This document shows, one piece after another, positions 5,670 to 30,968 of a stretch of 64,000 bases of DNA (positions are counted from its first letter, which is position 1; each line of letters begins with the position of its first letter). Made by a program: the position numbers and the translations under genes. This stretch comes from Thermoplasmata archaeon (lineage in GTDB: Archaea > Thermoplasmatota > Thermoplasmata > Lutacidiplasmatales > UBA184), in NCBI GenBank assembly GCA_027314915.1, contig DAHUZZ010000003.1, positions 1 through 64,000 of the forward strand, given 5' to 3'. The notes below the pieces were generated by a model. That model saw only the letters and a program-made list of their open reading frames with translations. It was not told the origin of the DNA and ran no database searches.

Positions 5670-6491
5670 TCAGACGGGGGGTCCCTCGGAACTGGGGGCC
5701 GGAGGGACGCGCGGGGCCTCGAGAGGGCTCGTGGCGGGCGCCGACCGCGGCGGGGAGGGGGCCGTCTGGAGCGCTTCGGCGATCCGCCGGTGGACCTCGG
5801 TGAGGAGCGATTCCCGGTCCTCGGCCCGCCGGATCATGACCGTCACGGCGAGCTCGGCCACCTGGGGGGAGCGGGAGCGCGTGGTCACCACCGGGGGGAA
5901 CCTGCGATCGAGCCGCATCCGCAGCTTGCCGAGCCGCTTGCGGAGCTCGCTCTCGAACTCCGCAAGGTCGACCGAGCCCGGCACCGAGAACGGGACCGTG
6001 AGCTCCTTCCAGGCCTGGGGGGACTCGTTGACCATCGGCTCCCGCATGAACATCGAGTTGGGCAGCGAGACCAGCCGGTCGTCCGCGGTGAGCAGGACGG
6101 TCGTCATGGCGTTGATCTCGATGACGCGGCCCTCGTGCTCCCGGATCCGGATCTGGTCGCCCAGCTTGAAGGGGCTGTAGACGTCGGAGAAGTACTTCGC
6201 GCCCAGGTTCTCGAGCTGCTCGCGGAGCGCGATGAGGGCGGCGATGCCGCACAGCGCGACCACCAGGAGGAGGACCTCCACACTGAGCCCGATCTCCTGG
6301 ATGGCCAGGATCCCGCCCATCAGCCAGATCACGACCGCCACGAGCCTCCGGGCTCCCAGCGCCACCTGGGGGCTGCTCTGCTGCATGAGCTCCCCCACGA
6401 GGAACGCGCCCACCCGCGCCACGAGCCAGGTGAGCCCGAGGATGATCGCGGCGTAGAGGAACGGGGTGAGGGCGGGGGGGAGGACGAACAT
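5670..6491 (-). CDS. MscS-family mechanosensitive channel, 273 aa
   Basis: Small-conductance mechanosensitive channel that releases solutes when membrane tension rises. Three hydrophobic helices lie at about residues 8-32, 47-68 and 71-95; the third leads into 'ENLGAKYFSDVYSPFKLGDQI', the TM3b/beta-domain signature. The beta domain continues 'GRVIEINAMTTVLLTADDRLVSLPNS', and the C-terminus ends in a Pro/Ala/Ser-rich tail. The start is ATG 6491, sharing one base with the stop of the upstream glycosyltransferase (TGATG) behind GGAG, so translation is probably coupled. The track start (TTG 6494) is one codon longer. A second MscS lies at 47520-48473. Confidence 0.88.
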   Translation of the reverse strand: MFVLPPALTPFLYAAIILGLTWLVARVGAFLVGELMQQSSPQVALGARRLVAVVIWLMGGILAIQEIGLSVEVLLLVVALCGIAALIALREQLENLGAKYFSDVYSPFKLGDQIRIREHEGRVIEINAMTTVLLTADDRLVSLPNSMFMREPMVNESPQAWKELTVPFSVPGSVDLAEFESELRKRLGKLRMRLDRRFPPVVTTRSRSPQVAELAVTVMIRRAEDRESLLTEVHRRIAEALQTAPSPPRSAPATSPLEAPRVPPAPSSEGPPV

Positions 6492-18197: not shown

Positions 18198-19367
18198 TCA
18201 ACCCTTTGGGGCGTCGCGCCCGGACGGGCGGAAGAGCTCCCGCGCGGCGACCAGGTGCATGATCTCGTCGGTGCCGTGGGCCACCCGCGCGCTCCGCAGG
18301 TCGCGGTACCGCTGGGCGAAGGGCAGCTCCTCGGAGTAGCCGGCGCCGCCGTGCACCTGGAGGGCGTGGTCGAGGACCGTGAGGGCCACCTCGCCCGCGT
18401 ACCACTTGGCGAGCGCGGCGTCGCCCTCCGTCGCCGTCCGGGCGTCGAGCCTCCGGAGCCCGCGTTCGACGAGCAGCCAGGCGGCCAGGAGCCGGGCCCG
18501 GTCCTCGGCGAGGGGGAACGCGACCGCCTGCTGCGCGGCGAGCGGCTTGCCGAACGCCGTTCGCGCGCCGGCGAACCGGACCGCCTCCTCCCAGGCGGCC
18601 CAGGCCACCCCGAGGTAGATCGCCCCCAGGAGGGCGCGCTCGTGGGAGAGCTCCGCCCGGAGGAGCTCGAAGGCCCGGCCTTCCGGTCCGAGCCGGGCGT
18701 CCGCCGGCACCCGGACCTCCTCGTAGACGACCTCCCCCCGGCGCATCCACCGTTCGCCGTAGTCCGGAACCACGCGCCGATGGATCCCCTCCTGACGCTG
18801 CGGGATCACGAACGCCGAGATCCCGCGCCCGTCCGTCCCCGGCCCCTCCGTCCGGGCGTAGACGAGGGCCGCGACGGCGTCCTCCGCGAACGCGGCCTGG
18901 CTCTTCGTCCCGCTCACGAGGTAGCTCCCGCCGTCGCGGCGCGCGACCGTCGCGATCGCCTGCACGTCGGAACCGGCGTGGGGCTCCGTGATCTGGTTGC
19001 CGACCACGAGCTCGCCCCGGAGCATCGGGGCCCAGTAGCGCGACCGCATCTCGTCGGAACCGTGCGTGCCGAGCAGGGACGAGAACTCCGGCTGGAGGGC
19101 GAGCTTCCCGAACATGGTGCCGCCCCGATAGGCCAGCTCGAAGAGGGTCCCTCCGGCCGTCTCGGCGGAGAGCCCGCGCCCTCCGAGCGGCGGGGGCACG
19201 GTGAGGCCCAGCAGCCCCGCCTCGCCCATCGCCCGGAACTCCTCCGCCGGGAAGGCGGGGGTCCGGTCGCGGCGGCGGCCGCCGGCCAGCATCTGGATCC
19301 GCGCGTCGAGGCGGCGCACCTCCTCCCGCGGCCCGCTCTCGGGCACGGGGAGCTCGGTCGCCGTCAC
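18198..19367 (-). CDS. Acyl-CoA dehydrogenase family flavoprotein, 389 aa
   Basis: FAD-dependent acyl-CoA dehydrogenase fold: N-terminal helical domain, middle beta domain with 'NQITEPHAGSDVQAIAT' and 'LVSGTKSQAAFAEDA', C-terminal helical domain with 'ARTAFGKPLAAQQAVAFPLAE' and 'VHGGAGYSEELPFAQRYRD'. The position holding the catalytic Glu in MCAD/SCAD (YEGT) reads AHGT here, so the base must lie elsewhere, as in isovaleryl/long-chain-type enzymes, or the activity differs. GTG 19367 overlaps the CoA-transferase stop by 4 nt (GTGA), implying a shared acyl-CoA substrate pathway. Substrate is unknown. Confidence 0.85.
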   Translation of the reverse strand: MTATELPVPESGPREEVRRLDARIQMLAGGRRRDRTPAFPAEEFRAMGEAGLLGLTVPPPLGGRGLSAETAGGTLFELAYRGGTMFGKLALQPEFSSLLGTHGSDEMRSRYWAPMLRGELVVGNQITEPHAGSDVQAIATVARRDGGSYLVSGTKSQAAFAEDAVAALVYARTEGPGTDGRGISAFVIPQRQEGIHRRVVPDYGERWMRRGEVVYEEVRVPADARLGPEGRAFELLRAELSHERALLGAIYLGVAWAAWEEAVRFAGARTAFGKPLAAQQAVAFPLAEDRARLLAAWLLVERGLRRLDARTATEGDAALAKWYAGEVALTVLDHALQVHGGAGYSEELPFAQRYRDLRSARVAHGTDEIMHLVAARELFRPSGRDAPKG

Positions 19368-20716
19368 AGCCCCTCCCGGACGAAGTACGGCGGCGCCGGG
19401 GGCGGGGCGGCCGCGGGCGGGTGCTCTCCGATCGTCCCCTCCGCACGGAGGGACCGTATCCGCTCGGGCGGGTACCGGAGCAGCTCCCCGAGGATGCGCT
19501 CGTTGTCCTGGCCGAGCCAGGGCGCGCCCCTCCAGACGCCGCCGGGCGTCTCGGAGAACCGGGGCGCCACGCCGGCGCCCTTGACCCGGCCCGCGACCGG
19601 GTCCTCCCATTCGAGGAACATCCCGCGCGCGCGATAGTGCGGGTCGCGGGCGATCGCGGCCATGTCGTACACCCGGGAGATCGCCGTGTCGTGCTCGCGC
19701 CCGATCGACTCGAGCTCCGACACGCTGTGCTCGCCGCACCAGGCCGCCAGCCGGGCGTCCACCTCGGCCCGATGCTCGCGTCGCCAGACCTCGTCGTCGG
19801 CCGCCGCCTCGGGGAACCCGAGGAGCGGCCGCAGCCGCCGCCAGGCCTCGGGTGTCGGGGCCGCCACCACGACCCAGCCGTCCCGCGCCCGGAGGAGGTC
19901 GTAGGGATGGAGCCGGGCGTGGGCGTTCCCGTACCGGCCCCGGACGACCCCCCGGAGGAAGTAGTCGATGGCCAGGTTCTCGAGCAGCGTGAAGAAGACC
20001 TCGTACTGGGCGACGTCGACGACCTGGCCACGGCCCGTCCGGAGGCTCGCGAGGTGGCCCATGAGGGCCGCCCCGGCGGCGGCGAGCCCCGTGACCGTGT
20101 CGTTGAGGGCGGTGCCCGCGCGCATCGGGGCGCCCGGCTCGGGGTCCCCCTGGAGCGAGAGGAAGCCGCTGAAGGCCTGCCCGGTGAGGTCGTAGGACGG
20201 GGCGCGGAGCCGCTCCGGCTCGCCGGTCTGGCCGAACCCCGAGACGTGGACGATCGTGAGCCGGGGGTTGGCGGAGTGGACCGCCGCGTCCCCGAGCCCG
20301 AGCCGGTCGTAGCTGCCCGGTCGGGAGGACTCGATCCAGACGTCGGAGACCCGGAGCAGGTCGAGGAACACCGCCCGGCCGGCCGGCGATCGCAGGTCGA
20401 GCCCGAGCGAGAGCTTGTTCCGCGAGTACTGGACCCAGGACTCCGAGACCTGGCGGGGACGCTCCGCGCCCTCGGGGATCAGCGGCGGGAGGCTCCGCGT
20501 GGGGTCCGAGTACGGCGGGGCGAACGGAGGCCCCTCGACGTGGATCACCTCGGCCCCGAACTCGCCGAGGTAGGTGCCCGCCCACGGCCCCGCCACGAAC
20601 CGTCCGGAGTCGACGACCCGGAGCCCGGCGAGCGGGCCGAACCCGGGGATGAGCGGGGGCGGAGGTCCGGCGCCAGCGGCCACGCCGTACGGGCCGGCGG
20701 TAGCCCGATAACGCAC
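19364..20716 (-). CDS. Class III (CaiB/BaiF) CoA-transferase, about 450 aa
   Basis: Family III CoA-transferase moving CoA between acids, a formyl-CoA/carnitine transferase relative. Landmarks are 'GPLAGLRVVDSGRFVAGPWAGTYLGEFGAEVIHVE', 'NKLSLGLDLRSPAGRAVFL' and 'VHVSGFGQTGEP', then 'YDLTGQAFSGFLSLQG' and 'GTALNDTVTGLAAAGAALMGHL'; the C-terminal small domain is complete. Start choice: GTG 20716 lies 26-28 nt from a TATA-like box at 20744-20748 and suits a leaderless mRNA; GTG 20683 is the alternative, and neither has a Shine-Dalgarno sequence. It forms an operon with the acyl-CoA dehydrogenase. A 22-bp palindrome overlapping its start is a probable operator. Confidence 0.85.
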   Translation of the reverse strand: MRYRATAGPYGVAAGAGPPPPLIPGFGPLAGLRVVDSGRFVAGPWAGTYLGEFGAEVIHVEGPPFAPPYSDPTRSLPPLIPEGAERPRQVSESWVQYSRNKLSLGLDLRSPAGRAVFLDLLRVSDVWIESSRPGSYDRLGLGDAAVHSANPRLTIVHVSGFGQTGEPERLRAPSYDLTGQAFSGFLSLQGDPEPGAPMRAGTALNDTVTGLAAAGAALMGHLASLRTGRGQVVDVAQYEVFFTLLENLAIDYFLRGVVRGRYGNAHARLHPYDLLRARDGWVVVAAPTPEAWRRLRPLLGFPEAAADDEVWRREHRAEVDARLAAWCGEHSVSELESIGREHDTAISRVYDMAAIARDPHYRARGMFLEWEDPVAGRVKGAGVAPRFSETPGGVWRGAPWLGQDNERILGELLRYPPERIRSLRAEGTIGEHPPAAAPPPAPPYFVREGL

Positions 20717-20737
20717 GAGGTTCCGTACGGAACCTCG
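20716..20737. promoter_or_regulatory. 22-bp perfect palindrome, probable operator in divergent promoter
   Basis: Arms CGAGGTTCCGT / ACGGAACCTCG pair perfectly over 22 bp. The palindrome lies between the TATA-like box at 20741-20749 and the inferred transcription start/start codon of the CoA-transferase, and just upstream of the box that would also serve the divergent 20777 gene. A repressor bound here could block both promoters. No cognate regulator gene is adjacent. Confidence 0.6.
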
Positions 20738-20740
20738 CGC

Positions 20741-20749
20741 TCCAAATAG
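20741..20749. promoter_or_regulatory. Possible shared bidirectional TATA-like box
   Basis: TCCAAATAG reads CTATTTGGA on the other strand, so the same A/T core lies about 28 nt before GTG 20716 on the minus strand and about 30 nt before ATG 20777 on the plus strand. No other A/T-rich element is visible in this 60-bp spacer. Confidence 0.4.
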
Positions 20750-20776: not shown

Positions 20777-21502
20777 ATGAGCGAACCTCCCTGGATCCGG
20801 TACGAAGGGGCCCAGTTCCGCGACGAACTCACCCGGTTCAAGATGGGCCAGCACCCGTTCCGGACGCACCCCTTCTTCGACCGCATCGAACGCGGCGACG
20901 CCCCGCGGGAGCTCATCCACCGCTGGGCGGCCCAGTTCTACCCCTGGCTCGCGTGCGTTCCCATCGCCATGGCGGAGCGGTTCAGCCGCTGCCCCTGGGA
21001 GGCCCGGTTCGACCCCTACCGGAAGATGATCCTCGACCAGCTCCTCGAGGAGGCCGGCGATCCGAAGGGCAAGGAGCCGGGGCACCCGGAGCTGTGGCTC
21101 AGGTTCTGCGAGGGGCTCGGCCTGCCGCGGGCGACGATCCACGCGACCGCCCCGCTTCCCAGCACGCTCGTCGCCATGGACGACTTCCTCTACCTGAACC
21201 GCGAGGCGCCCTTCTTCGTCTCGGCGGGCGGCTCCTCCGAGCCCCCGAACGTCGAGCTCTGTGCGCGGCTCCTGCCGGCGTTCCGGAAGCACTACGGCGT
21301 GGGCGAACCTGCGCTCACCTACTACACCCTCCACGTGACGGCGGACGAGGACCACAGCCGGTGGGTGAACCAGATGGTGGCCGACTTCGCGAAGACCCCG
21401 GAGGTCCGCAAGGAGATGTGGGACGCGATGCTCCGCGGCTTCGCGCTCCACCGGCTCCTGATCGACGGCGCCGTCGGGACCGACGGGACGAACCCGCCGT
21501 GA
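20777..21502 (+). CDS. CADD/PqqC-like putative diiron protein (heme-oxygenase-like fold), 241 aa
   Basis: All-helical protein of the TenA/PqqC/CADD superfamily. The N-terminal 'HPFFDRIERGDAPRELIHRWAAQFYPW' is characteristic. Probable metal ligands are visible: 'EEAGDPKGKEPGHPEL' supplies Glu and His, and 'HVTADEDH' gives an H-x3-D-x2-H arrangement near residue 190, matching the ligand pattern of diiron members such as Chlamydia CADD and absent from thiaminases. CADD makes p-aminobenzoate. Placement directly before the chorismate operon (45-nt gap) makes an aromatic or pABA-related role attractive but unproven. A PqqC-like oxidase or generic iron-containing redox enzyme are alternatives. Confidence 0.7.
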   Translation: MSEPPWIRYEGAQFRDELTRFKMGQHPFRTHPFFDRIERGDAPRELIHRWAAQFYPWLACVPIAMAERFSRCPWEARFDPYRKMILDQLLEEAGDPKGKEPGHPELWLRFCEGLGLPRATIHATAPLPSTLVAMDDFLYLNREAPFFVSAGGSSEPPNVELCARLLPAFRKHYGVGEPALTYYTLHVTADEDHSRWVNQMVADFAKTPEVRKEMWDAMLRGFALHRLLIDGAVGTDGTNPP

Positions 21503-21547
21503 GCCGGCCGTAGGGACGCACGGACCCCGCGGACCATCAGGACTCCG

Positions 21548-22315
21548 ATGTACGGTCACGATCTCCGGATGCACCGGCTGTTCCCCGAGCCGGGGCGCCG
21601 GCTCTTCTCGGTCCCGCTCGATCACTCCGTCACCCTCGGGCCCATCGAGGGGCTCGAGAGCACCGCCGCCACCGCGCGCGAGCTCCAGGAGGGCGGGGCG
21701 GACCTGCTCATCGTCGCCAAGGGCGCGGTACGCGACGTCGTCCCCGTCCTCTCCCCGCCCACCCTCCTCGGCATCCACCTCTCGGCCTCGACCGCGCTCG
21801 GGGACCGGGCGGACCGCAAGGTGCTCGTCGGCACCGCCGCCGAGGCCTCCGCGCTCGGCGCCGATCTGGTCTCGGTCCAGGTCAACTTCGGCGTACCGGA
21901 CGAGCCCGAGATGCTCCGCGACCTGGGCGGGATGGTCGATCAGTGTCGTGCCGCCGGCCTGCCGCTCCTCGTGATGGCCTACGTGAAGGGCCGCGCGACG
22001 CCCGGCGAGGCGGAGATACGGCACGCGGCCCGGGCCGCCGCCGACCTCGGTGCCGACCTGGTCAAGACCAGTTACCCCGGCACTCCGGAGGCGTTCCAAC
22101 GGCTCGTCGCGTCGACCCCCGTGCCGGTCCTCCTGGGGGGAGGCGTCCGGCTCGACGACGAGGCGGCCGCGCTCGGGCTGATCCGCACGGTCGTGGACGG
22201 GGGGGGCGCCGGCATCTGCATCGGACGGAACCTCTTCCAGCGCCCGCCGCTCGTGCCGTTCGCCCAGAAGGTCGCGCGGATCCTCCACGGGGAGCCGCGG
22301 CCCAACGCACGATGA
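21548..22315 (+). CDS. 2-Amino-3,7-dideoxy-D-threo-hept-6-ulosonate (ADH) synthase, 255 aa
   Basis: Class I aldolase-fold enzyme (FbaB/DhnA family) of archaeal aromatic synthesis. It joins L-aspartate semialdehyde to a 6-deoxy-5-ketofructose-1-phosphate-derived unit to give ADH, replacing the DAHP synthase step. Key regions are 'VPLDHSVTLGP' at residues about 22-32, 'VQVNFG' and 'MAYVKGRA'. The Schiff-base Lys is in 'GADLVKTSYPGTPEAF', followed by the phosphate-binding 'GGGVRLDD' and 'AGICIGRNLFQ'. The pairing with 3-dehydroquinate synthase II directly downstream (4-nt ATGA overlap) separates it from a glycolytic aldolase. It heads the stop-start-coupled operon. Confidence 0.92.
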   Translation: MYGHDLRMHRLFPEPGRRLFSVPLDHSVTLGPIEGLESTAATARELQEGGADLLIVAKGAVRDVVPVLSPPTLLGIHLSASTALGDRADRKVLVGTAAEASALGADLVSVQVNFGVPDEPEMLRDLGGMVDQCRAAGLPLLVMAYVKGRATPGEAEIRHAARAAADLGADLVKTSYPGTPEAFQRLVASTPVPVLLGGGVRLDDEAAALGLIRTVVDGGGAGICIGRNLFQRPPLVPFAQKVARILHGEPRPNAR

Positions 22316-23337
22316 CGCGCGGTCGGGCGATCCTCGCCCTCGCGCCGGCCGATCGCGCGGCGCTCGCCACGATCCTCGCCCGGGCCCGGAGGCTCGGATT
22401 CCACCGGTTCGTGGGCGAGCCGGAACCGGGACCGGCCTCGGAGACCTGGTACCGGGCGACCGACGAGGGGTACTCCGACCTCGGCGACCCTCCCCGAGCC
22501 CGCGTGCGCCTCCGCGACGCGCACGACCCGGCGACCTGGGCGGAGCTCCGCGACGCCCGGCGGTCGGGCGAGTCCGTCGCGGTCCGATGGCAGGGCGACC
22601 GCATCCTCCCGCTCGAGAACCTGCTCGCCGAGCCCTCGGGCGGCGGGGAGCTGTGGGTGCTCGCCTCCACCGCGAGCGAGGCCCCGGGGCTCGTCGGGGC
22701 GCTCGAGCGGGGCGCGGATGCCGTGGTCGTCCCGGTGCGCTCCGAGCGCGACGTCGAGGAGCTCGCCCGGTTCCTCGAGCCGTCGCTTCCGGACGCGCTC
22801 GACTGGCACGCCGTGCCCGTCCGACGCGTCGAGCCGGCGGGCCTCGGGGACCGGGTGATCGTGGACACGACGTCGCTGCTGGATCCCAGCGAAGGGCTCC
22901 TGGTGGGCAGCGCCTCCGCTTTCCTCTTCCATGTGGCCAGCGAGGCCACCGGCTCCGCGCACACCCGGCCCCGGGCCTTCCGCGTGAACGCCGGGGCCCC
23001 GCACTCCTACGTCCTGCTCGCCGACGGATCCTCGCGCTACCTGAGCGAGCTCGCACCGGGGGAGGCCGTGCTCGTCGCGCGACCCCGGGGGGCGCTCCGC
23101 TCGGTGCGGGTGGGCCGGCTCAAGATCGAGCGGCGTCCGCTCACCCTGGTCGAGGCGGAGTTCGCCGGGCGAGCGCGTACCGTCTTCGTCCAGGAGGCGG
23201 AGACCGTCCGGCTCTCCGGGGAGTCCGATCGGATCGAGGTCACGCGGCTCACGCCGGGCGAGAAGGTCCTCGGCGTCCGGGCGGCACCGGCCCGCCACTT
23301 CGGCCAGGCCATCGAAGAGCAGATCGAGGAGCGATGA
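22312..23337 (+). CDS. 3-Dehydroquinate synthase II, 341 aa
   Basis: Archaeal-type 3-dehydroquinate synthase (AroB' family): NAD-dependent oxidative deamination and cyclisation of ADH to 3-dehydroquinate. The family-defining C-terminal block is present: 'VIVDTTSLLDPSEGLLVGS', 'SEATGSAHTRPRAFRVNAGAPHSYVLL', 'YLSELAPGEAVLVA', 'VRVGRLKIERRPLTLVEAE' and 'VFVQEAETVRL'. The N-terminal half is more divergent and Arg-rich. Length matches the family. ATG 22312 overlaps the ADH synthase stop, and its own stop overlaps aroDE by 4 nt. Confidence 0.93.
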   Translation: MTRGRAILALAPADRAALATILARARRLGFHRFVGEPEPGPASETWYRATDEGYSDLGDPPRARVRLRDAHDPATWAELRDARRSGESVAVRWQGDRILPLENLLAEPSGGGELWVLASTASEAPGLVGALERGADAVVVPVRSERDVEELARFLEPSLPDALDWHAVPVRRVEPAGLGDRVIVDTTSLLDPSEGLLVGSASAFLFHVASEATGSAHTRPRAFRVNAGAPHSYVLLADGSSRYLSELAPGEAVLVARPRGALRSVRVGRLKIERRPLTLVEAEFAGRARTVFVQEAETVRLSGESDRIEVTRLTPGEKVLGVRAAPARHFGQAIEEQIEER

Positions 23338-24830
23338 GCGATCGCCGGCTCCCCTCGATCGCGGCCTCCCTGCCCGGGCGCTCCGTGCCCGAGCTCCGGG
23401 CCGAGCTTCGAGCGGCCCGGGAGGCCGGCGCGGACCTCGCGGAGATCCGGGTCGACCGGCTGACGGACGCCGGCCCCGGTTCGGTCGACGAGCTGTTCCC
23501 GGCCGAACTGCCCCTCATCGCGACGTACCGGTCCCGGGCCGAGGGCGGGCACGGCGCGACGGACGCCGCCGCGCGCGGGGCGCTCCTCCTGGGGCTCGCG
23601 GCGCGCCCGTTCCGGTTCCTTGATCTTGAGCTGGCCCGGGACCTCCCGCTCCGGCCGGAGCTCGCGCGGGCGCTCGACCGACCGGGAGCCCCGACGCCGA
23701 TCCTCTCGGCCCACCTGCCCCAGGGGACCGCCCCCTCGGTGCTCCATCAGCTCGTGGCGGACTCGGTGCGGCCCGGGGCGATCGTCAAGGTGGTCCTTCC
23801 CGCCGACATCGGCGAGCTGCTCGAGGAGATCCTGCCCCAGCTTCCGCCGCCCGGCCTGGGGACGCACGTGGTCCTCACCACGGGGCGCTCCGGTCCCCTC
23901 CTCCGGGCCCTCAGCCGCCGGTTGCAGGCTCCGCTCGTCTATGCCGCGCTGCCCGAGCGGCCGGCGGTCGAGCCGGCGCAGATCCGCGCGGACCGTTTAC
24001 GGAACTACTTCCGCGGCCCCGAGGGGGCGCCCCTCTTCGGGGTCGCCGGCCGATCGGTCGCCCGGAGCCGTTCTCCCGAGCTCCACCACGCGTGGATGGA
24101 CGCCCTCGGACTCGCCGGCCTCTACCTTCCGCTCGAGTTCGTCGAGGGCGGGGAATTCCTTGGGGCGCTCCCGCACCTCGCGGCGTGCGGGTTCCGGGGA
24201 GTGAACGTCACCCATCCGTTCAAGATCGAGGCCCTCGAAGCCGCGGACCGCGCCGGGCCGGCGGCCGAGCGCGCGGGCTGCGCGAACCTGCTCACCTTCG
24301 AGGCGGGTACCGTCACCGCGGAGAACACCGACGTGGCGGCCATGATCCAGCGGCTCGGCGAACTGCGCGCGGCCCGGGCCCGGGGGATCGGCCGGGTCAC
24401 CATCCTGGGCTCCGGGGGCGCCGCCCGCGCCGCGCTTGCCGCGGCCGAGGCGACCGCCCTGCCGGCCGAGATCCGTGCGCGCAACCCGGCCCGCGCCGGC
24501 GAGCTCGCCCGGGAGTTCGGTGCGGAGGTGGGGCGGGATCGGCCGGCCGGGCCCGCCGACCTGCTCATCCAGGCCACGCCCGCGGGCACCCCGGGGGCGC
24601 CGACGCTCGAGGTGGACCTGGACGGACTCCTCGGTCCGGGCAGCCATGTCCTCGACTACGTCTACGACCCCCAACCCCGGTCCCTGGAGGAGCGGGCGCG
24701 CCGGAGCGGCGCGACGTACGAGGATGGGAGTCGGCTCCTCGTCTACCAGGCGGCGCTGAGCTTCGAGACGTGGTGGTCCCGCCAGGTCCCGGACGAGCTC
24801 CTCCGGGCCTCCCTGCCGGGGGCGGCATGA
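23334..24830 (+). CDS. aroDE: Bifunctional 3-dehydroquinate dehydratase / shikimate dehydrogenase, 498 aa
   Basis: Fusion of two consecutive shikimate-pathway steps. Residues about 1-220 are type I dehydroquinase: 'LAEIRVDRLTD', catalytic His in 'ILSAHLPQGTAP', and Schiff-base Lys in 'GAIVKVVLPAD'. Residues about 230-498 are shikimate dehydrogenase: 'SRSPELHHAWMDALGL', 'GVNVTHPFKIEALEAAD' (catalytic Lys), 'AENTDVAAM' (catalytic Asp) and NADP loop 'ILGSGGAARAALAAAE'. The C-terminal 'EDGSRLLVYQAALSFETW' is typical. Both active sites look intact. Fusion is known in plants and some bacteria and archaea. ATGA overlaps occur on both sides. Confidence 0.93.
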   Translation: MSDRRLPSIAASLPGRSVPELRAELRAAREAGADLAEIRVDRLTDAGPGSVDELFPAELPLIATYRSRAEGGHGATDAAARGALLLGLAARPFRFLDLELARDLPLRPELARALDRPGAPTPILSAHLPQGTAPSVLHQLVADSVRPGAIVKVVLPADIGELLEEILPQLPPPGLGTHVVLTTGRSGPLLRALSRRLQAPLVYAALPERPAVEPAQIRADRLRNYFRGPEGAPLFGVAGRSVARSRSPELHHAWMDALGLAGLYLPLEFVEGGEFLGALPHLAACGFRGVNVTHPFKIEALEAADRAGPAAERAGCANLLTFEAGTVTAENTDVAAMIQRLGELRAARARGIGRVTILGSGGAARAALAAAEATALPAEIRARNPARAGELAREFGAEVGRDRPAGPADLLIQATPAGTPGAPTLEVDLDGLLGPGSHVLDYVYDPQPRSLEERARRSGATYEDGSRLLVYQAALSFETWWSRQVPDELLRASLPGAA

Positions 24831-25717
24831 GGGGGCTCGGACGGGCCAGCGCGGCGATCTCCATCGTGAACGCCCTCCCGACCGGGTTCGGCGCCGCGGC
24901 CGCCCTCCGGCTCGGCCTCCACGCCGCGGTCGAGCTCCGACGGGCGGGGCCGGGGGAGGTCCCGGAGTACCGGGTCCGCCCGGAGGACACGCCGCTCCTC
25001 CGTGCCACCGTGGGGGCGGCGCTGCGGGCCTACGCACCCCTCGAGTCGAACCACGTCCTGCTCGACGTCGAGTCCTCGATCCCACCGGGCCGCGGGCTCA
25101 AGAGCTCCTCCGCGGTCACGGTGGCGGTCTTCGAGGCCATCGCCATCGCGCGGGGCCACGCTCCTCCCCCGGAGGAGGTCGCCCGACGGAGCGCCGACCT
25201 CGCCCAGCAGTCGGGGCAGAGCGCGACCGGGGCGTTCGACGACGCGGTCGCCTCGGCCGCGGGCGGGGTGGTGATGACCGACAACCGTCGCCGCGAGGTC
25301 CTCGCCCGCGCGGAGATGCCGCCGGAGCTCCTCTGCGCCCTCCTGATCCCCCCGGCCGAGCACGCCCCGTCGCCGCAGCTCGTCGACCGGTTCGCCGGGC
25401 TGGAGGAGGCATCGACGCGTGCCTTCGAGGCCGCGCGGGACGGCCGCCTCCTCGAGGCGATGGCCCGGAACTCCGAGCTGGTGGAACGGGCGATGGGCTA
25501 CCGTGTGGCCGCGACCCGGGACCGCCTGGTCTCCGCCGGCGCGGAACTGGTCACGGTCACCGGGATGGGTCCCGCGCTCGCCGTGCTCGTCCGGCCGCCG
25601 GGGTTGCCCGCGGTGCTCGACGAGCTGGGGAAGCAAGAAGGGAGGGTCATCGTCTCCGGGTTCCGCCGGGCGGGCGAGACCGTCGGGGGTTCCCCCGAGG
25701 TCCGGTCGGTCCCATGA
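24827..25717 (+). CDS. Archaeal GHMP-type shikimate kinase, 296 aa
   Basis: Phosphorylates shikimate to shikimate 3-phosphate; archaea use a GHMP-superfamily enzyme unrelated to bacterial AroK. Visible GHMP features are the N-terminal 'ASAAISIVNALPTGFGAAAAL', ATP-binding motif 2 'ESSIPPGRGLKSSSAVTVA', 'FDDAVASAAGGVVMTDN', and C-terminal motif 3 'VTVTGMGPALAVLV'. Length is typical. Its place between shikimate dehydrogenase and EPSP synthase confirms the assignment. Starts within the aroDE stop (ATGA) and ends overlapping aroA. Confidence 0.93.
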   Translation: MRGLGRASAAISIVNALPTGFGAAAALRLGLHAAVELRRAGPGEVPEYRVRPEDTPLLRATVGAALRAYAPLESNHVLLDVESSIPPGRGLKSSSAVTVAVFEAIAIARGHAPPPEEVARRSADLAQQSGQSATGAFDDAVASAAGGVVMTDNRRREVLARAEMPPELLCALLIPPAEHAPSPQLVDRFAGLEEASTRAFEAARDGRLLEAMARNSELVERAMGYRVAATRDRLVSAGAELVTVTGMGPALAVLVRPPGLPAVLDELGKQEGRVIVSGFRRAGETVGGSPEVRSVP

Positions 25718-27006
25718 GCGGCGTGCGACTCCTCGGGGGCGTGGTCGGGGGGCGCATCGCCGCTCCGCCCTCGAAATCCTACACCCATCGGGCGCTCGTG
25801 GCCGGCTTCCTCACCGGCCGACCCTACCACGTGCATCATCCGAACCCGGGGGAGGACGCCCGGGCCACCCTCTCCGGCCTCGAGGCGCTGGGGGCCGAGC
25901 TCGAGTTCCGCCGCAACGGCTGGACCCTGTGCGCCCGGCGCGGTACCGACGCCCCGCGCCCACGGTCCGGCGCCCGGGTCGACTGCCGCTCCTCCGGGAC
26001 GACGCTCCGGTTCCTGACCGCGGTCGCGGCCGCGCGGACGGGGGAGACGAGCTTCCGCGGGAGCCGGGAGCTCGCCCGCCGGCCGCTGACGGGGCTCCTG
26101 GACGCGCTGCGGGCCGGGGGCGCCCGGGTCCACGGCCCCCCCAAGGACCGGGCGCTCCCCTTCAGCATCCTCGGGAGGATCCGGCCGGGAGCGTACGAGC
26201 TCCCGGGCGACGTGAGCTCGCAGTACCTCTCGGCCATGCTCTTCGCCCTGCCCGGTCTCGCGGCGCCCTCGACGATCCGGGTCCGCGGTCGGCAGGTCTC
26301 GCGGCCCTACGTCGACGCCACGATCGCCGTCCTGCACGCCCACGGGGTGGACGTGCGGCGCACCGCGCTCGGGATCGAGGTGCCGGCGCCGCAGCGGTTC
26401 GTCGGACGCCAGTTCTTCGTGCCCGGGGACGTCTCCTCGGCCGCCTACCTCTGGAGCGCGGCCGCGCTCACCGGCGGCCGGGTCCGGGTCACCGGCATCG
26501 ATCCGCGGTGGCCCCAGGCGGACGTTGCCATCCTCGACCTCCTCGGGTCGATGGGGGCGCGAATCCATCGCGCGCGGCGGGCGATCACCGTGGAGGGCCC
26601 GGTCCGACGGAGGTTCGAGGCGGACCTGACCGCCGCCCCCGACCTCGCCCCGCTCGCCGCGGTCCTCGCGGCGTCGGTCCCGGGGGCGACCTCGGTCCTG
26701 CGGGGCGGCCCCCAGCTGCTCCACAAGGAGTCGGACCGGCGCGAGGGGTCGGAGGCGCTCGCCCGGGCGTTCGGGGCCGGGGTGCGTTCGGAGCCGGGAC
26801 GGATCGAGGTCACCGGCGGCCGGCGGCCCCGGGCGGTGCGGCTCGACGGCCTGACCGACCACCGCCTGGTCATGGCCGCGGCGGTGGGCGCCGCGTCGCT
26901 CGCCGCCCCGAGCCTCCTCTCCGACGCCGGGGCGGTCGACAAGTCCTACCCCGGGTTCTGGGCCGATCTCGCGCAGCTCGGCGTCGGGGTGGAGCGGAGA
27001 ACATGA
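25714..27006 (+). CDS. aroA: 3-Phosphoshikimate 1-carboxyvinyltransferase (EPSP synthase), 430 aa
   Basis: Transfers enolpyruvate from PEP to shikimate 3-phosphate. Two-domain inside-out barrel. Motifs include 'APPSKSYTHRALVAGFL' (catalytic Lys and Arg), 'DCRSSGTTLRFLTAVAA' (PEP-binding loop region; S where many enzymes have N-A-G), 'RPLTGLLDALRAGGA', 'DVSSQYLSAMLFALP', 'VPGDVSSAAYLWSAAALTGG', 'LHKESDR' and near the end 'DHRLVMAAAVGA'. Complete length. ATGA overlaps with the shikimate kinase and chorismate synthase. Confidence 0.94.
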   Translation: MSGVRLLGGVVGGRIAAPPSKSYTHRALVAGFLTGRPYHVHHPNPGEDARATLSGLEALGAELEFRRNGWTLCARRGTDAPRPRSGARVDCRSSGTTLRFLTAVAAARTGETSFRGSRELARRPLTGLLDALRAGGARVHGPPKDRALPFSILGRIRPGAYELPGDVSSQYLSAMLFALPGLAAPSTIRVRGRQVSRPYVDATIAVLHAHGVDVRRTALGIEVPAPQRFVGRQFFVPGDVSSAAYLWSAAALTGGRVRVTGIDPRWPQADVAILDLLGSMGARIHRARRAITVEGPVRRRFEADLTAAPDLAPLAAVLAASVPGATSVLRGGPQLLHKESDRREGSEALARAFGAGVRSEPGRIEVTGGRRPRAVRLDGLTDHRLVMAAAVGAASLAAPSLLSDAGAVDKSYPGFWADLAQLGVGVERRT

Positions 27007-28088
27007 TGTCCTTCGGGCGGGGGTTCCGGGTCGAGCTGTTCGGATCGAGCCACGCCCCGCAGGTCGGCGCCGTGATCGAGGGGGTGCCCGAGGGGATGGC
27101 GCTCGACCTCGACGCCCTCCAGGCGATGCTCGACCGCCGGCGTCCGGTCGGCCGGTCGCTCGCTTCGCGTCGGCAGGAGGAGGACCGGCTCGTGCTCGAC
27201 GAAGGGATCGAAGGGGGCGTCGTGGTGGGACCCCGGGTCCGCGCGCACGTCGCGAACCTGGATGTCCGCCCGGCGGATTACGAGCCGTACCGGACGCTCC
27301 CCCGGCCGGGGCACGCCGACTATCCGGCCCGGACCCGGTACGGCCCGGAGGCGGACCTCGCCGGGGGCGGCATCTTCTCCGGCCGCATGACCGTGGGGCT
27401 CGTCCTCGCCGGCGCGATCGCCTCCCAGATGCTGAGGCCGAAGGGGTTCGACGTGGTGAGCTTCACGAGCTCCGTGGGCGGGATCGGGTGCGAGGTCGAC
27501 GAGCGCGGGCCGCTCCGCGAACTCGCCCACGCGGCCGGGCTCAACGAGGTGGGCTGCCCGGACCCGGACGCGGCCGAGGCGATGGCCCAGGCGATCGCGG
27601 AGGCGCGTCGGGCCGGCGACAGCCTGGGGGGCCTCGTCGAGACCCGGGCCGACGGACTCCCGGTCGGGCTCGGCGAGCCCTTCTTCGATTCCCTGGAGTC
27701 GGAGATCGCCCACCTGGCCTTCTCCGTGCCGGCGGTCAAGGGCATCGAGTTCGGGGCCGGGTTCGCCGCGGCCCGGATGCGCGGGAGCGAGCACAACGAC
27801 CCCTTCTACTGGGTCGAGGGCGCCGTGCGGACCCGGACCAACCACGCCGGCGGGATCCTGGGCGGGCTCTCGAACGGGATGCCGCTCCGGTTCCGCGTCG
27901 CGGTCAAGCCGACCAGCTCCATCGCCCGGCCCCAGGAGACGGTGGACCTCGCGCGGCGCACGCCGGCCACCCTCGTCGTCCGCGGGCGCCACGACCCCTG
28001 CATCGTGCCCCGGGCCGTCGTCGTGCTCGAGTCGATCACCTGGATCGCGCTCGCCGATCTGGCCCGGACCGGGGGGTTCGCGCCGTGA
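27003..28088 (+). CDS. aroC: Chorismate synthase, 361 aa
   Basis: FMN-dependent 1,4-trans elimination of phosphate from EPSP to chorismate. 'ELFGSSHAPQVGAVIEGVPEGM' is the N-terminal signature; typical enzymes have GESHG, here GSSHA. 'RPGHADYPARTRYG' and 'AGGGIFSGRMTVGLVLAGAIA' carry the conserved His and FMN-site residues, and 'GSEHNDPFYW', 'TNHAGGILGGLSNGMPL' and 'KPTSSIARPQETVD' are all present. The two N-terminal substitutions are worth noting but occur in other divergent archaeal enzymes. ATG 27003 overlaps the aroA stop. Confidence 0.94.
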   Translation: MMSFGRGFRVELFGSSHAPQVGAVIEGVPEGMALDLDALQAMLDRRRPVGRSLASRRQEEDRLVLDEGIEGGVVVGPRVRAHVANLDVRPADYEPYRTLPRPGHADYPARTRYGPEADLAGGGIFSGRMTVGLVLAGAIASQMLRPKGFDVVSFTSSVGGIGCEVDERGPLRELAHAAGLNEVGCPDPDAAEAMAQAIAEARRAGDSLGGLVETRADGLPVGLGEPFFDSLESEIAHLAFSVPAVKGIEFGAGFAAARMRGSEHNDPFYWVEGAVRTRTNHAGGILGGLSNGMPLRFRVAVKPTSSIARPQETVDLARRTPATLVVRGRHDPCIVPRAVVVLESITWIALADLARTGGFAP

Positions 28089-29137
28089 CGGGCCGCCTCC
28101 CCGTCGCGGTGCTCGGCGCCGGCGGGCTCATCGGACAGCACTTCGTCGAGCGGCTCCTCGACCATCCGGACTTCGAGCTCCGCGCGCTCACGGGGGGTTC
28201 CCGTTCGAGCGGTCGCCGCCTCGGGGAGCTCTGGCGGATCTCCGGTTCCCCGCCCGGAGCGGCCGAGGAGCTCCCGCTCGAGAGCACGTCACCGTCGGCG
28301 CTCGCCCGGCGCGGCATCCGCGTCGCCTTCTCCGGGCTCCCGTCCGGGGAGGCGGCCGCCGTGGAACGGGAGCTCGTGCGCCGGGGGATCCACGTCTTCT
28401 CGAACGCGAGCGACCACCGGGGGGCGCCCGGCGTCCCGCTGCTCCTCCCCGAGGTGAACGGTCCCATCCTGGCGCGGCAGGTGCGCCGCGGAGCGACGCT
28501 CCTCGTCACCAATCCGAACTGCACGGCGACCGGGCTCGCGCTCGCCCTCGCGCCGATCCTCCCGCATCTGCGTCCGCAGAGCCTCCATGTCGCCACCTAC
28601 CAGGCGCTCTCCGGCGCGGGGCTCCCGGGCGTCGCGTCCCTCGCCGCGTTGGACAATGTCCTGCCCTTCATCCCGGGCGAGGAGGAGAAGGTCGCGCGGG
28701 AGACGAACCTCCTCCTCGGCCGGGCCCGGGGCCGGACGGTCCGCCCGGCCGGCCTGCCGATCCTGGCGAACTGCGCGCGCGTCGGGGTCCGGGACGGTCA
28801 CCTCGAGGCGGTCTCGCTCGTGGCCCGCGGCCGCCCGACGGTGGCCGAGCTCACGCGGGCCTGGGAGGAGTTCGATCCGCTCCGGGGCCGCACCCTCGCC
28901 TCCGCGCCCCATCCCCCGGTCCGCTTCGATCCCCGGGACGACCGGCCCCAGCCGCTCCGGGACCGGGATTCGGGATCCGGTCGCACGCGGGGGATGCCGG
29001 TCGTCGTCGGTCGGCCCCGCTGGGAGCCCCCGTACTTCCGGTTCTTCGTGCTGAGCCACAATGCCGTGCGAGGCGGGGCCGGCGGTTCGCTGCTCAATGC
29101 GGAGTTCGCCCGGGAGGAGGGGTACCTTCCCTCATGA
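28085..29137 (+). CDS. asd: Aspartate-semialdehyde dehydrogenase, 350 aa
   Basis: NADPH-dependent reduction of aspartyl phosphate to L-aspartate semialdehyde. NADP-binding 'AVLGAGGLIGQHFVERLLDHPDFEL' opens the protein, the catalytic Cys is in 'TNPNCTATGLALALAPI', and 'LPILANCARVGVRDGHLEAVSL' contains the expected catalytic His region. Archaeal/fungal-type length. In this lineage its product is also the amino donor/acceptor unit for ADH synthase, which explains its place inside the aromatic operon. GTG 28085 overlaps the aroC stop and its stop overlaps the kinase start. Confidence 0.92.
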   Translation: MTGRLPVAVLGAGGLIGQHFVERLLDHPDFELRALTGGSRSSGRRLGELWRISGSPPGAAEELPLESTSPSALARRGIRVAFSGLPSGEAAAVERELVRRGIHVFSNASDHRGAPGVPLLLPEVNGPILARQVRRGATLLVTNPNCTATGLALALAPILPHLRPQSLHVATYQALSGAGLPGVASLAALDNVLPFIPGEEEKVARETNLLLGRARGRTVRPAGLPILANCARVGVRDGHLEAVSLVARGRPTVAELTRAWEEFDPLRGRTLASAPHPPVRFDPRDDRPQPLRDRDSGSGRTRGMPVVVGRPRWEPPYFRFFVLSHNAVRGGAGGSLLNAEFAREEGYLPS

Positions 29138-30321
29138 CGCGGTCACGCGTCGCCCGATCCCCGGGGCCCCCCACGGTGATCAAGTTCGGGGGGTCGACCC
29201 TGACCACACCCGGCAGGGTGGTCCAGTGGATCCGCCGCACGCGCGAGCGCGCCCCGCGGCTGGTGGTGGTGGTCTCGGCGCGGGCGAAGGTGACGGATGC
29301 GCTCGAGCGGGCGCTCGATCGACCCGGGGATACCGCGGGCCACCAGAGGCTCCTGACCCGGCTGCGCCGCCTCCACCGGCCCCTCACGCCGGAGATCCGC
29401 GGCGAGCTCGGGCGGCTCCGCGGTCGCTTCCGCGCGCTCGAGCGCGGGGGGGCGAGCGACCCCGACCTTCGGCCGGCGATCAGCGCGACCGGAGAGCGCC
29501 TGGCGGCCGAGTGGATGGCCGAACAGCTCCGGGCGAACGGGCTGCCGGCCCGGGTCCTGCACGCCGATCGCGCGGGGCTCCGGGTGCGCGGGGGACCCGC
29601 CGCGCCCCGCGTCAATCTCCCGGGCTCGGCGCGGGAGTTCCGGGCCGCGGCGCGGGCGGCGCTCCGGCACGGCACGGTCGCGATCCTCACCGGCTACCTC
29701 GGTCGCGGACCGGGCGGAGCGGTGCGGACGCTCGGTCGCGGAGGCTCCGATTACACGGCCGTGGCGTGTGCGGCGATCCTCGGTGCCCGGGACGTGGTGC
29801 TCGTGAAGCGCGATGCGCCGCTGCGTGCGGCCGATCCGGCCCTCCTCTCGGGGGCGGCGCCGATCCCGGAGCTCAGCTACGCGCGCGCGGGACTGCTGGC
29901 CCGGCTGGGCGCGCGGGCGCTCCATCCCCCGGCGATCGCGCTCGCCCGGAGGACCCGGATCGGGATCCACATCACGTCGCTCCACGACCCCTCCCGCGCG
30001 ACCCGCATCGACCGGGGGACGCGGGACCCCGATCACCCGATCCTCGTCCTCCTCCCCGCGGCGCGCGCCGGGCCGGACGCCCGCCCACCGGCGGTCCGGG
30101 TCGCGGTCGTCGGCGGGGCGGCGGGCCGTACGCCCTCGGAGCTCCCGCCCACGGTGGACCGGATCCGGGTCCTGCGCGGGCTCACGGTCCTGGAGCTCGG
30201 GCTGGGCGACCCCGTGCAGGCCTTGGCCCGCCTCCACCGCTCGCTCGTGGGGGGAGCCCATCGGCTCCGGCAGGGTCAAGCTTATTCGACCGGGCCCTCC
30301 GTGGGGCGTTCGACCCGATGA
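29134..30321 (+). CDS. Aspartate kinase, 395 aa
   Basis: Phosphorylates L-aspartate, the first step to aspartate semialdehyde. Amino-acid-kinase fold: 'VIKFGGSTLTTPGRVVQWI' (ATP site), 'LVVVVSARAKVTDALERAL', 'SATGERLAAEWMAEQL', 'ILTGYLGRGPGGAVRTLGRGGSDYTAVACA' (aspartate/ATP site) and 'VVLVKRDAPLRAADP'. After the kinase domain (about residue 290) only a shortened ACT-like region remains ('GLTVLELGL'), so the tandem ACT regulation of standard lysC may be reduced. Co-expression with asd and ADH synthase points to supply of the shikimate route. Confidence 0.9.
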   Translation: MTRSRVARSPGPPTVIKFGGSTLTTPGRVVQWIRRTRERAPRLVVVVSARAKVTDALERALDRPGDTAGHQRLLTRLRRLHRPLTPEIRGELGRLRGRFRALERGGASDPDLRPAISATGERLAAEWMAEQLRANGLPARVLHADRAGLRVRGGPAAPRVNLPGSAREFRAAARAALRHGTVAILTGYLGRGPGGAVRTLGRGGSDYTAVACAAILGARDVVLVKRDAPLRAADPALLSGAAPIPELSYARAGLLARLGARALHPPAIALARRTRIGIHITSLHDPSRATRIDRGTRDPDHPILVLLPAARAGPDARPPAVRVAVVGGAAGRTPSELPPTVDRIRVLRGLTVLELGLGDPVQALARLHRSLVGGAHRLRQGQAYSTGPSVGRSTR

Positions 30322-30968
30322 GGACGTTCGTCAAGATCTGCGGCATCACCGACCCGGCGATCCTCTCCGAGATCCCGTACGGCGGGGGAGCGGGGTTCCT
30401 GATCGGGGCGCCCGAGTCGCCGCGCTCCCTGACCGTGGAGCAGGTGCCCCCGCTCATCGACCGGTTGCCGAACGGCGTCGAGGCGTGGGGGGTCGTCGTC
30501 GACCCCACCGCCGAGCTCATCCACCGGCTCTACGACGAGGCCGGCGTGGACCGCATCCAGGTGTACGGGCCGGTCCCCTCCGGCCTCGAGTTCCTGGAGA
30601 TCCACCCCCTGGTCCCGTCGCTGCCGGTGGCGCCGGAGGGGACGCCGGGAAGCCCCCCGACGGTGCCCCCGGCCGAGGACTATCCTCGGCTCCACCTCGA
30701 CGCCGCCGGTACCCCGTGGGTCTCGGGAAGCCTCCTCACGCCCGACTGGTCGGTCTGCGCGTCGCTCGTCGACGCCCATCCGGGACGGAAGTTCACCCTC
30801 GCGGGCGGGCTGAGCCCCGAGAACGTCGCCGAGGCGCTCACGCGGGTCCGCCCCTGGGGGATCGATCTCGCCGCCGGGGTCGAGAGCGCGCCCGGCCGCA
30901 AGGAGGTCGCCCGGATCCGGGCCCTCCTCACCGCCGTGGACGCCTACGAGAAAGAGCTCCTGACCTGA
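30318..30968 (+). CDS. trpF: Phosphoribosylanthranilate isomerase (TrpF), 216 aa
   Basis: Amadori rearrangement in tryptophan synthesis, beta/alpha barrel. The N-terminal 'TFVKICGITDPAI' holds the catalytic Cys. 'LHLDAAGTPWVSGSLLTPDW' is where the general-acid Asp is expected, although the loop is longer and less canonical than in bacterial TrpF. 'FTLAGGLSPENVAEAL' and 'GIDLAAGVESAPGRK' form the phosphate-binding end. No other trp genes are in the window. ATG 30318 overlaps the kinase stop; it is the last gene of the aromatic operon. Confidence 0.9.
   Translation: MRTFVKICGITDPAILSEIPYGGGAGFLIGAPESPRSLTVEQVPPLIDRLPNGVEAWGVVVDPTAELIHRLYDEAGVDRIQVYGPVPSGLEFLEIHPLVPSLPVAPEGTPGSPPTVPPAEDYPRLHLDAAGTPWVSGSLLTPDWSVCASLVDAHPGRKFTLAGGLSPENVAEALTRVRPWGIDLAAGVESAPGRKEVARIRALLTAVDAYEKELLT

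Follow-up and report, generated by a model that had tools for sequence, protein, structure and literature searches.

Among the closest described counterparts of the locus analysed here is the ADH synthase (DKFP) pathway of M. jannaschii (MJ0400/MJ1249) and haloarchaea, which has the same first two enzymes and likewise uses aspartate semialdehyde (ASA). The H. salinarum counterparts are OE1472F/OE1475F, and in this organism ADH synthase is encoded in a trpCBA-OE1472F operon, for which the accessible parts of the source make no mention of asd or ask (PMC4162585). In contrast, in the stretch of 64,000 nucleotides from an uncultured soil archaeon that we examined (the window), all genes to chorismate, together with asd and ask, lie in one overlapping cluster. 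Literature searches, with most subscription papers outside reach, returned no description of an ask-asd-aro operon, of ACT loss or of an orphan TrpF. Gene identities were assigned with Pfam and NCBIfam profiles, several scores being under the NCBIfam equivalog cut-offs, and the relevant features are as follows.

20716..20737, no strand, palindromic operator candidate CGAGGTTCCGTACGGAACCTCG, a perfect 22-nt palindrome
20742..20749, + strand, TATA-like box CCAAATAG of the predicted operon promoter
20777..21502, + strand, TenA/PqqC/CADD-type haem-oxygenase-like protein, related to 4-aminobenzoate synthases (PF14518, 2.8e-19)
21548..22315, + strand, ADH synthase (2-amino-3,7-dideoxy-D-threo-hept-6-ulosonate synthase; NF005556, 1.5e-68; MJ0400 structure match, 8.9e-50)
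22312..23337, + strand, 3-dehydroquinate synthase II (PF01959, 5.3e-72)
23334..24830, + strand, 3-dehydroquinate dehydratase-shikimate dehydrogenase fusion, aroD-aroE (PF01487 at residues 11-224, PF08501 at residues 237-319)
24827..25717, + strand, GHMP-type archaeal shikimate kinase (TIGR01920, 182 bits, above cut-off)
25714..27006, + strand, EPSP synthase (TIGR01356, 307 bits, above cut-off)
27003..28088, + strand, chorismate synthase (TIGR00033, 367 bits, above cut-off)
28085..29137, + strand, aspartate-semialdehyde dehydrogenase (asd), GTG start (TIGR00978, 303 bits, above cut-off)
29134..30321, + strand, aspartate kinase (ask; TIGR00657, profile positions 4-290 only)
30040..30261, + strand, ACT2 remnant of Ask (aa 303-376; alignment with the family and the M. 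jannaschii kinase, MjAK)
30318..30968, + strand, orphan TrpF homologue with the PRAI fold (PF00697, 9.8e-18)

The cluster encodes both ADH synthase and 3-dehydroquinate (DHQ) synthase II, the combination by which the alternative archaeal aromatic pathway is recognized. The ADH synthase scores fall below the NCBIfam cut-offs (231 versus 241, and 203 versus 299). When aligned to MJ0400, the protein, a DhnA-type aldolase, retains Asp33, Tyr153 and Lys184, which we take to be the catalytic residues of this enzyme. Ask and Asd would convert aspartate into ASA, ADH synthase and DHQ synthase II would turn ASA and a deoxyketohexose phosphate into 3-dehydroquinate, and AroDE, the GHMP-type shikimate kinase, EPSP synthase and chorismate synthase would complete the route to chorismate. 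The preliminary description of this DNA had counted asd and ask as members of the aro operon, and the gene order in relatives bears this out: the order ADH synthase-DHQ synthase II-aroDE-shikimate kinase-EPSP synthase-chorismate synthase-asd-ask is kept across the family, which includes the Ca. Lutacidiplasmatales genome AcS1-67 (PMC9287336), and is found again, with one inserted gene, at two loci of a second family of the class. The reading that we favour, and consider likely, is that of a single ADH-synthase-type aromatic operon with its own ASA supply and one promoter, in which Ask and Asd serve mainly aromatics and the kinase has undergone ACT loss.

Whether ASA has other destinations depends on the remaining genes. 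A profile search of the host genome found one Ask and one Asd only, and no second ask/asd set; an additional Ask match was read from its sequence as UMP kinase, and an additional Asd match as ArgC, adjoining ArgJ. Homoserine dehydrogenase (HSD), DapB and a ThrC above the family cut-off were not detected in this genome, which is 84% complete, so that the absence of genes rests on the relatives. HSD and DapB are both absent in 53 of the 61 family genomes, 29 of these 53 being at least 90% complete, and above-cut-off ThrC occurs in HSD-bearing genomes. A 139-bit thrC-like match in one genome (G000) was discounted as threonine synthase because it is below the family cut-off. Relatives with Lys/Thr branches carry a second kinase in seven of eight cases (Fisher p=1.8e-8), and all nine second kinases found are neighbours of dapB or of hom/thrC; in the kinase tree they group in a clade of their own. 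Since the Lys/Thr branches nearly always come with a second kinase, the kinase of the operon is most likely devoted to aromatics, and the absence of the homoserine and DAP-lysine branches suggests that Ask and Asd together work mainly for this pathway.

Alternatively, Ask and Asd could be general ASA suppliers that are merely located in an aro operon, with ASA also going to methionine (through homocysteine) or to another product. A direct route from ASA to homocysteine is known in methanogens (cited in PMC9012536). In one relative (G002), an ACT1-less kinase of the same type adjoins hom/thrC, so this kinase type is not linked to aromatics everywhere, and genomes of family f11 have HSD, and mostly DapB too, alongside the aro-linked kinase. 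Nevertheless, we regard this explanation as unlikely, since HSD, DapB and above-cut-off ThrC are missing here and in most relatives, and the branches, where present, nearly always come with a second kinase.

The preliminary description had also noted a shortened ACT region in the kinase. The core motifs KFGG, GER and GRGGSDY are present in window Ask, and the nearest folds to its AlphaFold model (pLDDT 87) are ordinary aspartokinases. Alignment with the family and MjAK showed that ACT1 is deleted, and the model contains one partial ACT, the ACT2 remnant, with strands at 303-307, 321-326, 341-347 and 350-355 and a helix at 360-376; the tandem ACT1-ACT2 arrangement of feedback-regulated aspartate kinases is thus absent. 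Five kinases of the genus were examined; ACT1 is lacking in each, and these ACT1-less kinases form one clade nested within the operon kinases (support 96). Both ACT domains are kept in most of the family, indicating that ACT loss is a trait of the genus and not of the operon, and also in most family members without Lys/Thr branches, so branch loss alone is insufficient for ACT loss. The shortening therefore holds for the window's genus, where ACT1 is gone and ACT2 eroded, but not for most of the family. The related proposal, that flow would be directed into aromatics without lysine/threonine feedback, stands in part: the normal ACT region is gone and the kinase is predicted to be free of feedback, but neither a Lys (DAP) nor a Thr (homoserine) branch was detected in the genome, leaving little to feed back on it. 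In this genus, the need for Lys/Thr control may have disappeared, upon which the kinase would have lost ACT1 and eroded ACT2.

The same changes could instead reflect a decaying kinase, with ACT loss and long branches as signs of relaxed selection or incipient loss rather than of release from feedback. The genus kinase cores indeed lie on long branches, which could mean relaxed constraint, their C-termini are unequal (327-431 aa), the EEAEELAQFG motif is lost in the window kinase, and ask was not recovered beside asd in two relatives. However, the overlapping reading frame of ask is intact, K17, G120-E121-R122, R202 and D206 are invariant and the core model is confident, and window Ask is the sole kinase of its kind in the genome, which makes decay improbable compared with the favoured reading of a kinase released from control.

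Start and stop coordinates confirmed that all eight junctions of the nine genes from 21548 to 30968 are 4-nt overlaps, seven of the ATGA type and one GTGA. This is the longest run of such overlaps observed here, and most of these junctions also overlap in relatives, although in that comparison a start giving a -4 overlap was preferred wherever one existed. The TenA-like gene, for which the top PDB match is a 4-aminobenzoate synthase (4e-10), ends 45 nt before ADH synthase without overlap, and its position upstream of ADH synthase is conserved in relatives. Other 4-nt overlaps in the window are located at 6491/6494, 19364/19367, 34556/34559, 35116/35119 and 37344/37347; they are frequent in this compact genome and thus mark tight operons generally.

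The operator candidate is flanked by the TenA-like gene and a divergently oriented CoA-transferase gene, and its core, GGTT[CT]-N6-[AG]AACC (GGTTC-N6-GAACC type), precedes the TenA-like gene in 19 of the 19 family loci compared. In most of these, a TATA-like box (CCAAATA, CCATATA or CCTTATA) follows at fixed spacing 3' of the inverted repeat. No 8-mer with at least seven A/T was found in 20.6-31.2 kb, and inside the operon there is no AT-rich box of a strength similar to that in front of TenA. As far as ask there is thus no sign of an internal promoter that would separate asd-ask from the aro genes, although a weak CTTATT at 30281 could supply the last gene with its own promoter. Codirectional overlapping genes behind one promoter most likely represent a single operon, with most likely a single transcript. 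Transcription would be driven by the TATA-like box before the TenA-like gene, under control of a putative regulator binding the 22-bp palindrome. The earlier view of ADH synthase to trpF as one translational unit fits the tight overlaps, but these suggest coupling only, and the unit probably begins one gene before ADH synthase, at 20777. That the overlaps reflect general genome compaction, with several transcription units and internal promoters, is doubtful: such overlaps are frequent elsewhere in the window and internal promoters are reportedly frequent in archaeal operons (Koide 2009), but one conserved promoter block lies before TenA in all 19 loci and AT-rich 8-mers are absent inside the cluster.

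The last gene is probably not a trpF in the functional sense. Its product shares the fold of phosphoribosylanthranilate (PRA) isomerase (4wui, 1v5x and 1lbm; ~200-residue alignments, E=1e-19 to 1e-14), and the catalytic Cys and Asp are both present, whereas among 13 orphan relatives Cys is lost in seven and Asp in two. The phosphate-binding motifs GGxG and DVSSG are replaced by VSGSLL and DLAAG, and occur in none of 13 orphans, against 29/29 and 27/29 TrpFs of trp operons. Neither trpC nor trpD was found in the genome of the window, and the same holds for all of G000-G005, G024, G029 and G038. The orphans form a single clade in a TrpF tree that includes the motif columns, and evolve under purifying selection. 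Taken together, this indicates that the protein is probably no longer a working PRA isomerase. Several independent origins were rejected, because of this single clade and because the tree of chorismate synthase and Asd forces no more than one. Replacement of HisA was also discarded: HisF is missing in these genomes too, and only weak barrel matches below 60 bits were present. We lean, by a modest degree, towards a scenario in which Lutacidiplasmatales without the Trp pathway (in the tested genomes mostly also without His) kept this operon-3' homologue, in which the phosphate-binding motifs disappeared a single time, in a shared ancestor, and which has since taken on another role. This may be a new isomerase or ligand-binding step, or a structural or regulatory part in the aromatic pathway.

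The family offers a natural experiment on the allocation of a shared precursor. Without the Lys/Thr branches, ask and asd remain part of the aromatic operon, and the feedback domain of the kinase can be lost; with these branches, a second kinase is found as well. The conserved operator candidate could serve as bait for the regulator that acts on aromatic biosynthesis in these archaea, and the TrpF homologue is a candidate re-purposed enzyme for functional study.

Among known kinases, the threonine-sensitive aspartokinase of M. jannaschii (PDB 3c1m/3c1n) is the nearest structural neighbour and shares the core and overall fold, but has two full ACT domains instead of one partial ACT2. E. coli LysC, the lysine-sensitive aspartokinase III (2j0w/2j0x), has the catalytic core in common with the window kinase, which is without ACT1, the lysine-binding domain of LysC. 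With respect to gene content, a likeness is found in the aro operons of Bathyarchaeota (Ca. Bathyarchaeum tardum and locus L108), in which kinase, asd, (ADH synthase,) DHQ synthase, aroD, aroE, shikimate kinase, EPSP synthase and chorismate synthase are clustered as in the window; unlike in the window, kinase and asd occupy the 5' end of the cluster, and their kinase is a member of the other clade, sister to AK2.

Nine codirectional genes occupy 21548-30968, and each of the eight junctions overlaps by exactly 4 nt. Pfam and NCBIfam assigned them to ADH synthase (ADHS), DHQ synthase II (DHQS), an AroD-AroE fusion, a GHMP shikimate kinase (SK), EPSP synthase, chorismate synthase (CS), an archaeal-type aspartate-semialdehyde dehydrogenase (asd), an aspartate kinase (ask) and a PRAI-family protein, and alignment indicated that the ADH synthase retains D33, Y153 and K184 of MJ0400. 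The best reading is an aspartate-to-chorismate operon supplying its own precursor; the arrangement given in the preliminary description was confirmed, and its interpretation was supported in part. The order ADHS-DHQS-aroDE-SK-EPSPS-CS-asd-ask recurs across family f1, with overlaps at most junctions in the relatives as well, and another family of the same class (f11; L074, L077) has this order with one additional gene between CS and asd. Family f1 includes locus L085 from isolate AcS1-67, which is classed as Ca. Lutacidiplasmatales, an uncultured, high-GC Thermoplasmatota order from acid soil (PMC9287336); the words 'aromatic', 'chorismate' and 'auxotroph' are absent from the text of that paper. 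In relatives such as L050, apparent trpE, trpG, trpD, trpC, trpF, trpB and trpA follow downstream of ask, with the positions of trpC and trpD confirmed, so the ancestral unit probably covered the whole route between aspartate and tryptophan.

Two features precede the ADH synthase gene:

20716-20737, perfect 22-nt palindrome, upstream of the TenA-like gene
20777-21502, TenA/PqqC/CADD-like gene, 45 nt upstream of ADH synthase

In 19 of 19 family loci compared, a GGTT[CT]-N6-[AG]AACC repeat lies upstream of the TenA-like gene, followed at a fixed distance by a TATA-like box (CCAAATA(G/C) or a variant), and TenA starts 35-47 nt beyond the repeat. The pattern has 54 matches on both strands of 893 kb of family DNA, against 3.6 expected from mononucleotide shuffles, and 38 of these are the 19 sites. 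Many family loci carry a divergent CoA-transferase gene. Where it is apparently absent or displaced (L204, L209, L210 and L081), the repeat persists without the ATAAC/TTAA element of the CoA-transferase side, which assigns the repeat to the aro side. Since this block is conserved and 20.6-31.2 kb contains no 8-mer with at least 7 A/T, the transcription unit probably starts at 20777 from one predicted promoter. The palindrome with its adjoining TATA-like box (20716-20749) is a candidate operator for an aromatic-operon regulator. The TenA-like gene ranks among the best conserved in the cluster, with 65-79% identity across most family loci, and because the nearest PDB matches of its product are 4-aminobenzoate synthases, it may produce pABA for folate or a pterin. 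Divergently, acyl-CoA dehydrogenase-like and CaiB-type CoA-transferase-like genes (18198-20683, minus strand) share the promoter region; the latter reappears in many relatives.

No second aspartate kinase or Asd, and no homoserine dehydrogenase, DapB or above-cut-off ThrC, was found in the window's genome (G000; 76 contigs, 84% complete, window on contig C33). Homoserine dehydrogenase or DapB is present in 8 of 61 family genomes, and a second kinase (AK2) in 7 of these 8 and none of the rest (Fisher p=1.8e-8). All nine second kinases found, a separate clade in the kinase tree, lie as follows:

L035, L037, L039-L045, AK2 beside dapB or hom/thrC, confined to family members that have these branches

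This segregation supports the operon kinase serving aromatics. Aspartate semialdehyde may also be consumed elsewhere, for example in direct homocysteine synthesis. At L034 (9291-10583; G002), an ACT1-less kinase of the window clade adjoins homoserine dehydrogenase and thrC, apparently relocated out of the aro cluster. L072 (G029) and L066 (G004; a short contig) have aro clusters without ask after asd, and AK2 elsewhere in the genome.

The kinase had also been described as seeming to have a shortened ACT region. Full-length family kinases can be aligned with M. jannaschii aspartokinase over their whole length, both ACT domains included, and one modelled structure has two ACT-like units; the match of the window kinase ends at about residue 300. 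Its AlphaFold model (pLDDT 87) has a normal core, then four short strands and one helix, in the model a single incomplete ACT. In the alignment, 5/5 examined kinases of the window's genus lack ACT1, with ACT2 eroded in part or completely; these kinases form a single, long-branched clade. Shortening thus holds for the genus but not as an operon trait, as most relatives without lysine/threonine branches retain ACT domains, perhaps with a different sensing role. For the genus, release from lysine/threonine feedback is the best reading.

Neither trpC nor trpD was found in any of the six genomes of the genus or in G024, G029 and G038, and trpC was also not found in G043, G045, G047, G048, G057 and G060. 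Under a simple independence assumption, incompleteness alone would give the nine-genome trpC absence with a probability of ~3e-10. HisA/HisF were not found in G000 and most trp-less relatives tested either; broad amino-acid auxotrophy is likely. Thirteen such genomes (counting G044, whose sole trpC match is 20-bit) retain a TrpF homologue, mostly straight after asd or ask:

Window 30318-30968; L065, L072, L081, L087, L203-L210, orphan TrpF homologues

In the TrpF tree they group as a single clade (SH-aLRT 95.6). Compared with 29 TrpFs from relatives having trp genes, none of the 13 orphans keeps an intact GGxG (29/29 in the comparison set) or the SS of DVSSG (27/29 there); seven orphans have another residue in place of the catalytic Cys, and two in place of the Asp. 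Between near pairs dN/dS is 0.10-0.24, comparable to asd and ask. Loss of the phosphate-loop motifs at low dN/dS points to a protein kept under purifying selection and probably no longer active as a PRA isomerase, and repurposing is the best reading for this 3'-end gene. It is dispensable, since G001, G003 and G005 do without a TrpF homologue.

A similar kinase-asd-aro linkage occurs in Bathyarchaeota (L108, L153), but there, unlike in the window, asd and the kinase stand at the 5' end of the cluster, and the kinase is related to AK2.
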